Positions 44,057 through 63,794 of a stretch of DNA of 64,000 bases are shown piece after piece (the first letter of the stretch is position 1; each line of letters starts with the position of its first letter). Source of the stretch: a virus; the IMG/VR virus record IMGVR_UViG_3300032265_001314, positions 27,272-91,271 of that record; one strand, 5' to 3'. The notes beneath the pieces were generated by a model, which worked only from the letters and a program-made list of their open reading frames with translations, was not told the DNA's origin and made no database searches. The translations under genes and the position numbers were made by a program.

Positions 44057-44100
44057 GCACCAATACAGCAATAATCCAAAATAAAATCCTTGACAATCCG

Positions 44101-44128
44101 TTGACAAACCTTGCAGACGTGCTATTAT
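44101..44128 (+). promoter_or_regulatory. Early promoter with doubled -35 box
   Basis: TTGACA, 16 bp, TATTAT with TGC before the -10. A second TTGACA lies 11 bp upstream (44090-44095). Confidence 0.85.
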
Positions 44129-44158
44129 AAAGCATAGATTAACACAAAGGAGCTGGTA

Positions 44159-44383
44159 ATGAAGTCCAAGCACGAAACCAATGAACAGTTTGTAAAGCGG
44201 CTCATGAACCACTGCCCAACAGGTGCTTTGGGTCAGGCGTTTATTATCACAGCCATCGAATGGTATGCTAGGGAAGTAATTGATGCGGATCTCAAAGATG
44301 AAGGTGCCAGCTTTATCAATCCAGAAGCTTGGACCGCTACTGCTGAATACGTCTTGGGCGAGCTCAATCGGCAGTATGCTTGA
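44159..44383 (+). CDS. Conserved small phage protein
   Basis: 74 residues, helical: NEQFVKRLMNHCPTGALGQA followed by FIITAIEWYAREVIDAD. I recognise the CPTGAL-x-QAF-I core from many phages, function unknown. The stop TGA is inside the -35 of the next promoter. Confidence 0.7.
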   Translation: MKSKHETNEQFVKRLMNHCPTGALGQAFIITAIEWYAREVIDADLKDEGASFINPEAWTATAEYVLGELNRQYA

Positions 44384-44407
44384 CAGCCCACTGTGATATG
44401 CTATTAT
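44380..44407 (+). promoter_or_regulatory. Early promoter
   Basis: TTGACA, 16 bp, TATTAT, then ATAAACATAAGC and GGAG before the next gene. Confidence 0.85.
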
Positions 44408-44438
44408 ATAAACATAAGCTGAAACAAAGGAGAACACA

Positions 44439-44843
44439 ATGGCTACTCGTTCGCGCATTGGTATTGCTAATGAAGATGGTACTGTTACTAGCGTCTATTG
44501 TCACTTTGATGGGTATCCAGAAAACAACGGCAAGATCCTTGTTAAGCACTGGACTGATATCGCAAAGCTGAAGCAGCTAATGGCACTTGGTGATGTGAGC
44601 GTCCTGGGTAAGGAGATTGGAGAAAAGCAAGACTTTGATAACCGCACTAGCAAGGATTGGTGCCTAGCTTATGGGCGCGATCGTGGCGAGGATGGTGTAG
44701 ATGCTATGGAGCATCACTCAGTACCTTACTTCCTCTACAATGGTGAGGAATACAATTATCTCTTCCAAGACGGCAAGTGGATTTGCTTTGCCGGCAAGCG
44801 CATTAAAGATCAAATTAATCTCAACGAATATGTAGGAGCCTAA
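44439..44843 (+). CDS. Conserved phage protein (MATRSRIGI family)
   Basis: 134 residues. The opening ATRSRIGIANEDGTVTSVYC continues HFDGYPENNGKIL, a sequence recognisable from uncharacterised proteins of many phages. Tyr/Asp/Gly-rich C-terminus. No enzyme motif known. Confidence 0.75.
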   Translation: MATRSRIGIANEDGTVTSVYCHFDGYPENNGKILVKHWTDIAKLKQLMALGDVSVLGKEIGEKQDFDNRTSKDWCLAYGRDRGEDGVDAMEHHSVPYFLYNGEEYNYLFQDGKWICFAGKRIKDQINLNEYVGA

Positions 44844-44844
44844 C

Positions 44845-45000
44845 ATGGATACCAAAGCCACACGTACCATTGAAGTAATAGTGCGACTCACTGTCCTAGA
44901 AGATGCTGACATCCAGGAAGTGATCAGCGAGATGGATTATGATTTCAACCACGAAGCTATCCAGTTGACAGAAATCGTTGATGTGAACACGGAGCTCTAA
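44845..45000 (+). CDS. 51-residue acidic protein
   Basis: Begins one base after the upstream stop with GGAG nearby. The sequence DTKATRTIEVIVRLTVLEDA and EVISEMDYDF suggests a small alpha/beta fold. Function unknown. Confidence 0.6.
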   Translation: MDTKATRTIEVIVRLTVLEDADIQEVISEMDYDFNHEAIQLTEIVDVNTEL

Positions 45001-45001
45001 A

Positions 45002-45289
45002 ATGTTTGACTTCTTTAATACTAAATTAAAGAGCTACAATATATTGCCGCTGTGGACTACCGAAGTTACATCTGAACCTAGCTCTATTGGGTCGTATGTT
45101 GTGTCTATGACATCCGATGGTGACACTACTCTAACACTCATAAACGGTGGAACGAGGATGACACTGCATATGACTACCGCAGGTACTAAAGAACTAATCC
45201 GCACACTCTCTGCTACTCTGCTAGAAGAGACAAAGACCCCGCTGTCCGCTGTAAGCCACTTGACAGCCCGTGTAGATATGCTATTATAA
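45002..45289 (+). CDS. Small protein whose C-terminus is encoded by the next promoter
   Basis: 95 residues, Thr/Ser/Leu-rich. The last twelve codons run through a repeat copy and the whole -35 to -10 of the next promoter, giving the end SHLTARVDMLL and a stop inside the -10. Function unknown. Confidence 0.55.
   Translation: MFDFFNTKLKSYNILPLWTTEVTSEPSSIGSYVVSMTSDGDTTLTLINGGTRMTLHMTTAGTKELIRTLSATLLEETKTPLSAVSHLTARVDMLL
45234..45245 (+). repeat. AGACCCCGCTGT repeat, copy 8
   Basis: Exact 12-mer inside the small gene, 14 bp before the -35 of the next promoter. Confidence 0.85.
45260..45287 (+). promoter_or_regulatory. Early promoter
   Basis: TTGACA, 16 bp, TATTAT. Confidence 0.8.
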
Positions 45290-45315
45290 AGCATAAACAC
45301 AAACAGGAGCACACG

Positions 45316-45591
45316 ATGAAGTTCACACTCGAGATTTACAAGATGGATCGTCGCACTAAAGAGGGTATGCGGATCGTTGGCAAGTATGATTACGACCGCC
45401 CAGATCGTGCTGCGATGGAACGTGAGATCGCAGAACTGTTCCCTACTTACCGCAAGCGCGATGGCTACATCTTCAACGTGGTTGAGACCTACGTGAAGCG
45501 TGTCAATGCGATGAGCGGACAAGAGTTTGAAGAGCGTTACGACACGCCCTACTACGCATCAGCTAGTTCAGAAACCTATTGGAGCGCATAA
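45316..45591 (+). CDS. Hypothetical early protein
   Basis: 91 residues with a basic, Arg/Tyr-rich body (KFTLEIYKMDRRTKEGMRI, AELFPTYRKRDGYIFNV). No known domain. Strong AGGAG site. Confidence 0.6.
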   Translation: MKFTLEIYKMDRRTKEGMRIVGKYDYDRPDRAAMEREIAELFPTYRKRDGYIFNVVETYVKRVNAMSGQEFEERYDTPYYASASSETYWSA

Positions 45592-45592
45592 A

Positions 45593-45880
45593 ATGAAGAT
45601 TGATTTCCTTAATGGTCCTAAAGTTACTATCTCTGCAACCCCAGACGAATGGGAACTGTATGGTGCTGATACACCTGAACAGGAACAGGATCGAGACTTT
45701 GTTGCCGATGCATTGAACCGAGGTGTTGAGACACTCATCGCCCACGCACCTACCCGCAGAGATATCAATTATAAAGATATCAATCTGCTGTTAAGTGGGT
45801 ATAGTGCTTGGGGAGCAGCCGATACTGAAGGTCACTATATGGTCGAGCGTATCTTAGAAAAGGTATATGGCGATGAATGA
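45593..45880 (+). CDS. Hypothetical early protein
   Basis: 95 residues from MKIDFLNGPKVTISATPDEW; this ATG lies one base after the upstream stop. Contains ELYGADTPEQEQDRDFVADA and a final VERILEKVYGDE. Function unknown. Confidence 0.6.
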   Translation: MKIDFLNGPKVTISATPDEWELYGADTPEQEQDRDFVADALNRGVETLIAHAPTRRDINYKDINLLLSGYSAWGAADTEGHYMVERILEKVYGDE

Positions 45881-62692: not shown

Positions 62693-62723
62693 AAGACATA
62701 AGATGCAAACAGAGGAGAGAACG

Positions 62724-62909
62724 ATGCGGTTCCAGGGAACATTTTGCTTTGCGGTTGGTTTGATGCTCGCGGTCGTGGGTGTAGCAGCTGTGGATCAGAG
62801 CCTCACAGATGATGGTCTGATCACAGGGTTCTTGATCAGCTTGCTGGGCTGTGGTGTGCTAGGTTGCGGTGTGCTGATGCTGAAGCGAGAGGAAGCCTAC
62901 TACGGTTGA
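62724..62909 (+). CDS. 61-residue two-span membrane protein
   Basis: From MRFQGTFCFAVGLMLAVVGV with GAGGAGAG upstream; second span FLISLLGCGVLGCGVLML. Stop TGA lies in the next -35 box. Confidence 0.65.
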   Translation: MRFQGTFCFAVGLMLAVVGVAAVDQSLTDDGLITGFLISLLGCGVLGCGVLMLKREEAYYG

Positions 62910-62933
62910 CACTAGGTCTAGGTGTGCTATTAT
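62906..62933 (+). promoter_or_regulatory. Early promoter
   Basis: TTGACA, 16 bp with TGTGC, TATTAT, then ACATTATAGGCAATGAGGAG. Confidence 0.85.
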
Positions 62934-62959
62934 ACATTATAGGCAATGAGGAGCAGCAC

Positions 62960-63142
62960 ATGGGCATCGTAACGAACGCTAAGAAGCTGAACGCTAACAT
63001 CGCAGAGATGATTGAAGCTTACATTGCCGCGAAGGGTGTTACTAGGGCAGAAGACGTTGCGACTGCTAAGGGCACGAAGCTGCCCAAGACGAAACATGCG
63101 GGCAAGGCGAACTACGGTATGAGGACGAGGCGCTATGCCTAG
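62960..63142 (+). CDS. Small basic protein
   Basis: 60 residues, Lys/Arg/Ala-rich (KAKGTKLPKTKHAGKANYG-type tail). Possibly nucleic-acid binding by charge. Function unknown. Confidence 0.6.
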   Translation: MGIVTNAKKLNANIAEMIEAYIAAKGVTRAEDVATAKGTKLPKTKHAGKANYGMRTRRYA

Positions 63143-63143
63143 G

Positions 63144-63171
63144 TTGACGTATCCTTAGCAGGTGTTATTAT
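63144..63171 (+). promoter_or_regulatory. Early promoter
   Basis: TTGACG, 16 bp with GGTGT, TATTAT. Confidence 0.75.
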
Positions 63172-63199
63172 AACACTATAAGCAATGAGGAGCAACACT

Positions 63200-63463
63200 A
63201 TGTCGCAAGTCACAATCGTCGCGCAAGTCGTCCAGCCCTGCACCTATAGCTATCGCCAGCGCTGTCCTAACACCAAGCGCATCCTAACCCACACCCGCAC
63301 CTACCAGCAGCGTGTCGCAATCTTGCAACAGGACAGCCAGCGTGTCGTCATCCAGGACTTCCAATCCTCTAAGTTCCGCAGCCAAAAAGCCCTGCAATCT
63401 CTGTTTCCAATAGCGTTGCACTACGCCAAAATGGGTGTCGCAGGGTATAGCGTCCAAATGTAA
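63200..63463 (+). CDS. Small basic protein
   Basis: 87 residues, Gln/Arg/Thr/Val-rich (QRVAILQQDSQRVVIQDFQS). From the ATG with GAGGAG. Function unknown. Confidence 0.6.
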   Translation: MSQVTIVAQVVQPCTYSYRQRCPNTKRILTHTRTYQQRVAILQQDSQRVVIQDFQSSKFRSQKALQSLFPIALHYAKMGVAGYSVQM

Positions 63464-63477
63464 CAGACCTAGCAAGG

Positions 63478-63505
63478 TTGACAGCCCTACAGCAGATGCT
63501 ATTAT
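63478..63505 (+). promoter_or_regulatory. Early promoter
   Basis: TTGACA, 16 bp with ATGC, TATTAT. Confidence 0.8.
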
Positions 63506-63532
63506 ACATGTATAGGCAATGAGGAGCAGACG

Positions 63533-63730
63533 ATGTATAACGCAATGACAGACACAGGCATCCGCAAAGCCCTTAAGGTGCTCCGCGCAAACCTTGATGC
63601 ATCATTTGCTACCCGTGAAGAACAAGCCGAAGCCTTGGAGTGCATACGCTCCATGATCGATGGTATGATCGACGAGCTGATCCGCAGGAACACGGACCCC
63701 TACACCACAGCCGCTGACCCGCGCTTTTGA
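63533..63730 (+). CDS. Small helical protein
   Basis: 65 residues. KALKVLRANLDASFATREEQ and ALECIRSMIDGMIDELIRRN are amphipathic helices. Function unknown. Confidence 0.6.
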   Translation: MYNAMTDTGIRKALKVLRANLDASFATREEQAEALECIRSMIDGMIDELIRRNTDPYTTAADPRF

Positions 63731-63766
63731 ACTGCAGGATGAGGACGAACTAGCCTACACAGGTGC

Positions 63767-63794
63767 TTGACGTGCTCTGCAGGTGTGCTATTAT
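63767..63794 (+). promoter_or_regulatory. Early promoter
   Basis: TTGACG, 16 bp with TGTGC, TATTAT, then AAGACATAAGATGAGGAG. Confidence 0.8.

Follow-up and report, generated by a model that had tools for sequence, protein, structure and literature searches.

A repeated, predicted early promoter whose -35 box often contains the stop codon of the preceding gene in a large tailed phage

Predicted early promoters between small genes

The DNA considered here, called the window, is the 64,000-nucleotide end part (27272-91271) of the 91-kb phage record IMGVR_UViG_3300032265_001314. It is organized in a leftward half and, from 44.1 kb onwards, a rightward part dense with small genes, which probably represents the early region of a large tailed phage. 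Between 44101 and 63767, this part contains 26 rightward promoters of the sigma70 type, composed of a TTGAC(A/G/T) -35 box and an extended -10 element TGcTATTAT, which, judging from their sequence, would be active early promoters. A TGA triplet occurs in the -35 box of 25 of the 26 promoters and, at 12 of these 25, it is also the stop codon of an upstream open reading frame (ORF) of at least 44 codons.

The promoters form a homogeneous repeat family. All -35 boxes read TTGAC except TAGACG at 61508, and the spacer measures 16 bp at all sites but 60700 (17 bp). The family corresponds to that described in an earlier note on this DNA, which had counted 27 members instead of 26. Over the whole 91-kb record, the pattern TTGACA-N13..19-TATNAT occurs 16 times forward and 8 times in reverse, versus 0 and 2 times when the pattern is read backwards; the promoter consensus itself was computed over 23 window sites. 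The resemblance extends to the leader and the Shine-Dalgarno sequence across the sites, and in one family of five copies the promoter, leader and ribosome-binding site are 61-86% alike over 70 nt. Terminator-like hairpins show no clear excess in the window (19 versus 14.9 expected), and no unusual folding was seen at the promoter regions (mean z -0.79 for 24 window sites), with the exception of 61951 and perhaps 45260. A 13-pair hairpin extends from 61939 to 61970 across the -35 box of the 61951 promoter, the sole site with the appearance of the promoter-early stem-loops (PeSLs) of T4-type phages. At the left end of the series, a tandem TTGACA with copies 11 bp apart occupies 44090-44106.

Stop codons inside the -35 box

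The sites at which an ORF of 44 codons or more terminates with the -35 TGA are exactly the twelve listed in the earlier note. Within the same stretch, non-promoter TTGA ends such an ORF in 4 of 90 cases (versus 12/25; Fisher P 9e-7), non-promoter TGA in 28 of 417 and non-promoter TTGAC in none of 16 (P 0.001). A stricter automatic gene finder, which lost the genes before 46076 and 48008 and whose scan lacked 51942, still placed the upstream stop at exactly +1 of TTGACA, counting from the first T of TTGAC, in 9 of the 18 promoters with an assignable upstream gene; the other upstream stops were scattered from -39 to +35. ORFs of at least 44 codons enter the box in the TGA frame at 12 of the 26 sites and in each of the other two frames at 3 of the 26. 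The constant frame position emphasized in the earlier note is correct as an observation but carries no information, being automatic once TGA is the stop. The excess of shared stops at promoters is real.

Most of the upstream ORFs behave as genes when compared with the only close relative found, IMG/VR 3300002307_000027, which is colinear with the window at about 80-85% identity. Seven of the eight upstream ORFs with an ortholog in this relative together show 45, 30 and 139 differences at codon positions 1, 2 and 3, respectively, with the same stop, a pattern which identifies them as genes; the eighth, 62724-62909, was compared by protein alignment, shows the same C-terminus and is not part of that total. 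The remaining ORFs have no ortholog at the same place: 46646-47146 matches HNH families, 62004-62159 possesses a 43% homolog, and 48843-49172 and 52450-52791 are supported as genes by an ORF, an ATG and a Shine-Dalgarno sequence only. These four of the twelve, together with the ORF before 48008, which comprises 44 codons and starts with GTG, are what could suggest that ORFs ending in TTGACA are chance readings and not genes. With the codon-position pattern of the seven orthologous pairs and the Fisher test against non-promoter TTGA, chance overlap is ruled out for at least seven of the twelve, and the probability of such an artefact as a general explanation is very low.

The same arrangement is encountered outside the repeat family. 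Among 12 leftward promoter sites examined, six have an ORF of at least 55 amino acids (aa) ending in the -35 TGA, so that the leftward sharing mentioned in the earlier note exists, in six cases instead of two. The coordinates of all these features are collected in Table 1.

Table 1. Predicted promoters and associated genes of the window; stop positions are given relative to the first T of TTGAC
Feature	Coordinates	Strand	Remarks
predicted early promoter	44101..44128	+	preceding tandem TTGACA at 44090; same-strand upstream gene not assigned
gene, TGA in next -35 box	44159..44383	+	225/225 nt versus relative, substitutions 5/6/22 by codon position
predicted early promoter	44380..44407	+	TGA of TTGACA = stop of 44159-44383
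predicted early promoter	45260..45287	+	gene 45002-45289 reads through, stop TAA in -10 region (+27)
predicted early promoter	46076..46103	+	TGA = stop of 45867-46079
HNH-like gene, not in relative	46646..47146	+	stop = TGA of 47143 promoter
predicted early promoter	47143..47170	+	TGA = stop of 46646-47146; leader type unlike orthologous promoter
predicted early promoter (TTGACT)	48008..48035	+	TGA = stop of 47877-48011 (GTG start, conserved in relative)
gene, absent here in relative	48843..49172	+	stop = TGA of 49169 promoter
predicted early promoter	49169..49196	+	unit with gene 49229-49474 (block 49166-49464), elsewhere in relative
predicted early promoter	49855..49882	+	TGA = stop of 49646-49858; within module 49635-50106 common to L110/L112
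gene, stop TAA	50107..50244	+	relative: promoter+gene unit next, stop = TGA of TTGACA
predicted early promoter	50418..50445	+	upstream stop at -18
predicted early promoter	50942..50969	+	gene 50713-50973, stop TAA just past -10 (+29)
predicted early promoter (TTGACG, TATTGT)	51942..51969	+	TGA = stop of 51634-51945 (dCMP deaminase-like)
predicted early promoter	52788..52815	+	TGA = stop of 52450-52791
predicted early promoter	53453..53480	+	TGA = stop of 53196-53456
weak promoter-like site (TAAAAT)	54952..54979	+	upstream stop at +35
predicted early promoter (TTGACG)	59701..59728	+	
predicted early promoter, not in relative	59951..59978	+	promoter alone gained or lost, between TAA stop and Shine-Dalgarno
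predicted early promoter, spacer 17	60700..60728	+	TGA = stop of 60500-60703
promoter-like site, TAGACG	61508..61535	+	
predicted early promoter (TTGACG, TATTGT)	61618..61645	+	
predicted early promoter	61951..61978	+	strong hairpin over -35 box; left end of 205-bp promoter-to-promoter unit
gene of 205-bp unit, not in relative	62004..62159	+	stop = TGA of 62156 promoter
predicted early promoter	62156..62183	+	TGA = stop of 62004-62159
predicted early promoter	62665..62692	+	directly after tRNA-Thr
predicted early promoter	62906..62933	+	TGA = stop of 62724-62909
predicted early promoter (TTGACG)	63144..63171	+	upstream stop at -4
predicted early promoter	63478..63505	+	upstream stop at -17
predicted early promoter, not in relative	63767..63794	+	promoter-only gain or loss
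predicted leftward promoter	39525..39552	-	TGA ends ORF 39716-39549 (55 aa, conserved in relative)
predicted leftward promoter	35702..35729	-	TGA ends ORF of 193-282 aa
predicted leftward promoter before tRNA-Arg	35003..35030	-	TGA ends 191-aa ORF
predicted leftward promoter (TATAAT, without TG)	25287..25315	-	TGA ends 535-aa gene, 81% identity in relative
predicted leftward promoter	24227..24255	-	TGA ends 152-aa ORF
predicted leftward promoter	19645..19672	-	TGA ends 74-aa ORF

Other features concern the phage as a whole and a possible kinship with T4. The leftward half of the window encodes, among others, an RNA ligase/tail-fibre attachment protein (PHROG 562), and the NrdA protein of the record shares 60% identity with that of Stenotrophomonas phage DLP6; no match to the T4 major capsid family Gp23 (PF07068) was found in the three fragments tested. 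A search with protein 41231-42430 returned as sole relative the phage already used for comparison, and relatives of protein 60012-60434 were sought and none found. Genes for tRNA-Met, tRNA-Leu and tRNA-Thr (61003-61170, 62582-62657) sit among the early genes, and a megablast comparison of the early region with named phages gave a single match, at the tRNA-Leu of EBPR podovirus 3. A short repeat with AGACCCCGCTG occurs at 45216-45244, 58783-58826 and 60432-60475, and is also present in the relative, beside the promoter orthologous to 45260.

Probable exchange of promoters, leaders and genes

Base-level comparison with the close relative uncovers several kinds of difference, for which a single relative does not allow gain to be distinguished from loss. 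Two window-only genes, 46646-47146 and 48843-49172, are each situated between the preceding stop and the next promoter, in the TGA of which they end, and neither has a promoter of its own. The unit 49166-49464, consisting of promoter, leader and gene, is located about 2.9 kb further on in the relative, with 2 differences in the first 69 positions of the promoter-leader; the gene preceding it ends in its TGA in both phages, and these two preceding genes (109 and 133 aa) show no detectable relation (E 0.10). A promoter with a 59-aa gene is present in the relative between the homologs of 50107-50244 and 50244-50402. There, the first of these homologs ends in R-A-S-stop with the TGA of TTGACA, in place of the R-A-A-stop with TAA found in the window. 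The genes between promoters 51942 and 52788 are replaced in the relative, the 205-bp promoter-to-promoter unit 61951-62155 occurs in the window only, and promoters 59951 and 63767 are each absent alone from the relative. The stricter gene finder places the stop at +1 in 8 of 19 assigned promoters of the relative; in front of its counterpart of 63478, the preceding gene takes its stop from another TTGACA, 8 bp ahead of the -35 box.

The leaders, taken as the 26 nt after the -10 element, do not simply follow their sites. Among 21 orthologous promoter sites, 8 have their best match, outright or tied, in the leader of their ortholog, and a leader from another site scores higher at the other 13. 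At 44380, both flanking genes are orthologous (86% and 57% protein identity), yet the leader type differs. Leader sequences thus offer good but not conclusive indications of an exchange between sites, because function also constrains them.

The earlier note had gone further, in considering promoter, leader and gene as a modular cassette that could be gained or lost as a whole. In the strict form of this proposal, the module would be cut exactly at TTGACA, with the shared stop as its signature. The moved unit 49166-49464, the promoter and gene unit at 50244 and the promoter-to-promoter unit 61951-62155 agree with units of this kind and are among the changes for which the note had suggested looking. 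As a general border, TTGACA fails. Using alignment blocks of at least 120 nt and a hand-checked gene list (59948, from a shorter block, being the right end of one junction), 36 block ends were located in 44.1-64 kb. Of these, 27 lie at most 25 bp from a gene border, and 13 coincide with promoters. The latter number exceeds uniform placement (P 8e-5) but not gene-border placement (P 0.33), since promoters represent 11% of the sequence but 31% of the gene borders; the comparison of gene order proposed in the earlier note accordingly yields no preference for breaks at TTGACA over gene borders in general. Moreover, the two-gene module 49635-50106, 91% alike in the otherwise unrelated contigs L110 and L112, with which nothing else of at least 90 nt is in common, carries a promoter with a shared stop in its middle, and the window-only genes without a promoter of their own differ from the relative all the same. 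Since leftward promoters not belonging to the repeat family share stops too, as do promoters of other phages, the shared stop does not mark a cassette. Strictly TTGACA-delimited cassettes are therefore rejected as the rule, and a strict form of this proposal is improbable. Borders at TTGACA do occur at locus L111 (blocks starting at 15527 and 18784 of L011). The stretch 54100-59650 of the early region is nearly free of these promoters, and 4 of its 10 module borders coincide with gene borders, without clear preference.

Other phages have the shared stop as well. The ATPase encoded by 53628-54644 belongs to PHROG 1250, with relatives in 1236 phage records, including PA5oct-like phages and Acj9, in the record of which it is named nrdC.10. 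In 86 other loci, chiefly from these ATPase relatives, 58 of 250 promoters have their assigned stop at +1 and 37 of 250 at -6; after removal of similar sites (promoters at least 75% alike over 60 nt, the loci not being clustered by genome) the numbers become 21 and 23 of 130. Locus L013, identical to part of L012, was excluded from these counts, and locus L098, which gave one promoter match, has no homology to the window. In these other phages, 58 of 442 TTGAC followed by an extended -10 coincide with a gene stop, versus 23 of 2158 TTGAC without a -10-like hexamer. The position -6 (stop, three bases, TTGAC) is a second favoured place in related phages, as common as +1, and at 6970, 11237, 12649 and 13175 of L012, a diverged relative, the upstream genes end at a TAA in the promoter spacer (+14). 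Locus L111 has the stop at +1 in 2 of 5 assigned promoters, and coliphage RB49 (first 50 kb) in 3 of 16 promoter-like sites with an assigned stop (38220, 36985 and 22263, each an annotated coding-sequence end). In positions 1-50000 of DLP6, the search gave no comparable promoter to which an upstream stop was assigned. Among the matches listed, families such as those of 46437-46643, 62004-62159 and 62724-62909 contain homologous genes which differ between phages, some having their stop within TTGACA and others an ordinary one; this indicates that the arrangement is labile and was re-formed repeatedly.

These comparisons also bear on another explanation, according to which the saving of bases led promoters to arise, or to be retained, where TGA stops already existed, recombination of promoters playing no special part. 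It would account for the sharing at single leftward promoters and in other phages, and for the gene families which re-form the junction. It leaves aside that leaders reaching about 26 nt past the promoter core are common to the sites, that their type differs at orthologous sites, and that promoter and leader travel with their gene. Economy of space as the sole cause is thus rather unlikely, even though space economy, instead of a regulatory effect, is probably the reason why the stop stays inside the -35 box. Sharing the stop may have a regulatory role, but nothing points to it.

Known systems and a proposed function of the promoter-leader repeat

Stoperators, the 13-bp asymmetric repressor-binding sites of cluster A mycobacteriophages (L5, D29, Bxb1), have no conserved -10 or leader, but they too are repeated in a single orientation within short gaps between genes, and their transcribed strand likewise carries TTGACA. 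An identification of the window sites as repressor-binding stop sites of this type, instead of promoters, would agree with their large number and single orientation near gene ends, and the L5 site on the other strand, CTTGACAKCCACC (consensus as quoted in PMC3029335), resembles CTTGACAnnCCAC of the window. However, the window sites possess the conserved TGcTATTAT at a fixed 16-bp spacing followed by a leader, their CC lies one base further, and only 1 of 18 transcribed-strand sites in D29 (30.0-49.1 kb) shares a stop at +1. The stoperator identity was rejected on these grounds and is very improbable.

Lambdoid and other mosaic phages contain boundary sequences associated with recombination at gene borders. 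The window resembles them in this respect and differs in having a promoter-leader repeat as its border sequence.

The nearest known system consists of the PeSLs (Arbiol et al. 2010, Comeau et al. 2014), presented in PMC4503421 as "mobile regulatory cassettes" of T4-type phages and proposed mediators of shuffling. Both systems would comprise many copies of an early sigma70-type promoter among small shuffled genes, a likeness read here from sequence. They differ in the stem-loop, a PeSL feature: the mean z of the window sites contrasts with -2.67 for 15 RB49 sites, hand-picked from 37 promoter-like sites. RB49, a T4-type phage, also has promoter-like sites of which the TGA is an annotated stop, but sharing is commoner in the window (9/18 versus 3/16 assigned). 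By its working principle, the window system may thus be viewed as a PeSL variant devoid of stem-loop, not as a proven member of the group. A literature search found no paper on the shared stop, but did not cover the original PeSL papers, so that no novelty is claimed.

Taking these data together, the most probable reading, to which we assign a probability of roughly 0.72, is that of a recombining promoter-leader family resembling the T4-type PeSLs, mostly without the stem-loop, in which the shared TGA represents the tightest possible junction. Each small gene or short operon of the early region would have its own copy of one strong sigma70-type promoter, the repeated copy consisting of about 60 bp of promoter, leader and ribosome-binding site. 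Recombination would take place among these copies and between them and gene junctions, with gain, loss, movement or swapping of genes and promoters as the outcome, and homologous recombination between copies would account for the differences from the relative. The shortest junction leaving both the upstream protein and the promoter intact would be that in which the TGA of TTGACA serves as the upstream stop; it is easily reached because TTGACA contains TGA, and it would form repeatedly and persist.

Several points weigh against this reading. All the evidence on differences comes from one close relative and is unpolarised, and the absence of a border excess at promoters over gene borders applies here as well. 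Promoter similarity is also maintained by function, so that alignment ends near promoters and a likeness of leaders are partly expected without recombination. Finally, in the diverged relative L012 the stop occupies +1 in 3 of 15 sites only, and +14 in 4.

A more daring extension, which is possible but held tentatively, assumes that the promoter-leader repeats are self-fitting gene linkers: recombination would set a copy behind almost any gene end, and the copy would supply the last codon and the stop. Depending on the frame, the upstream gene would end at the TGA of the -35 box or at a TAA situated in the spacer, within the -10 region or immediately past it, and new gene combinations would be viable at once, without a separate 3' junction.

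The sequences make a case for a repeated promoter acting as a joint between phage genes, which also closes the upstream reading frame, and the finding ties the promoter cassettes of T4-type phages to a simple packing rule. Should the linker reading be true, it would explain why the shuffling of small early genes can leave the adjacent genes intact. Should packing alone be responsible, the observation would still serve as a hint for annotation, a strong TTGACA promoter often marking the true end of the upstream phage gene.

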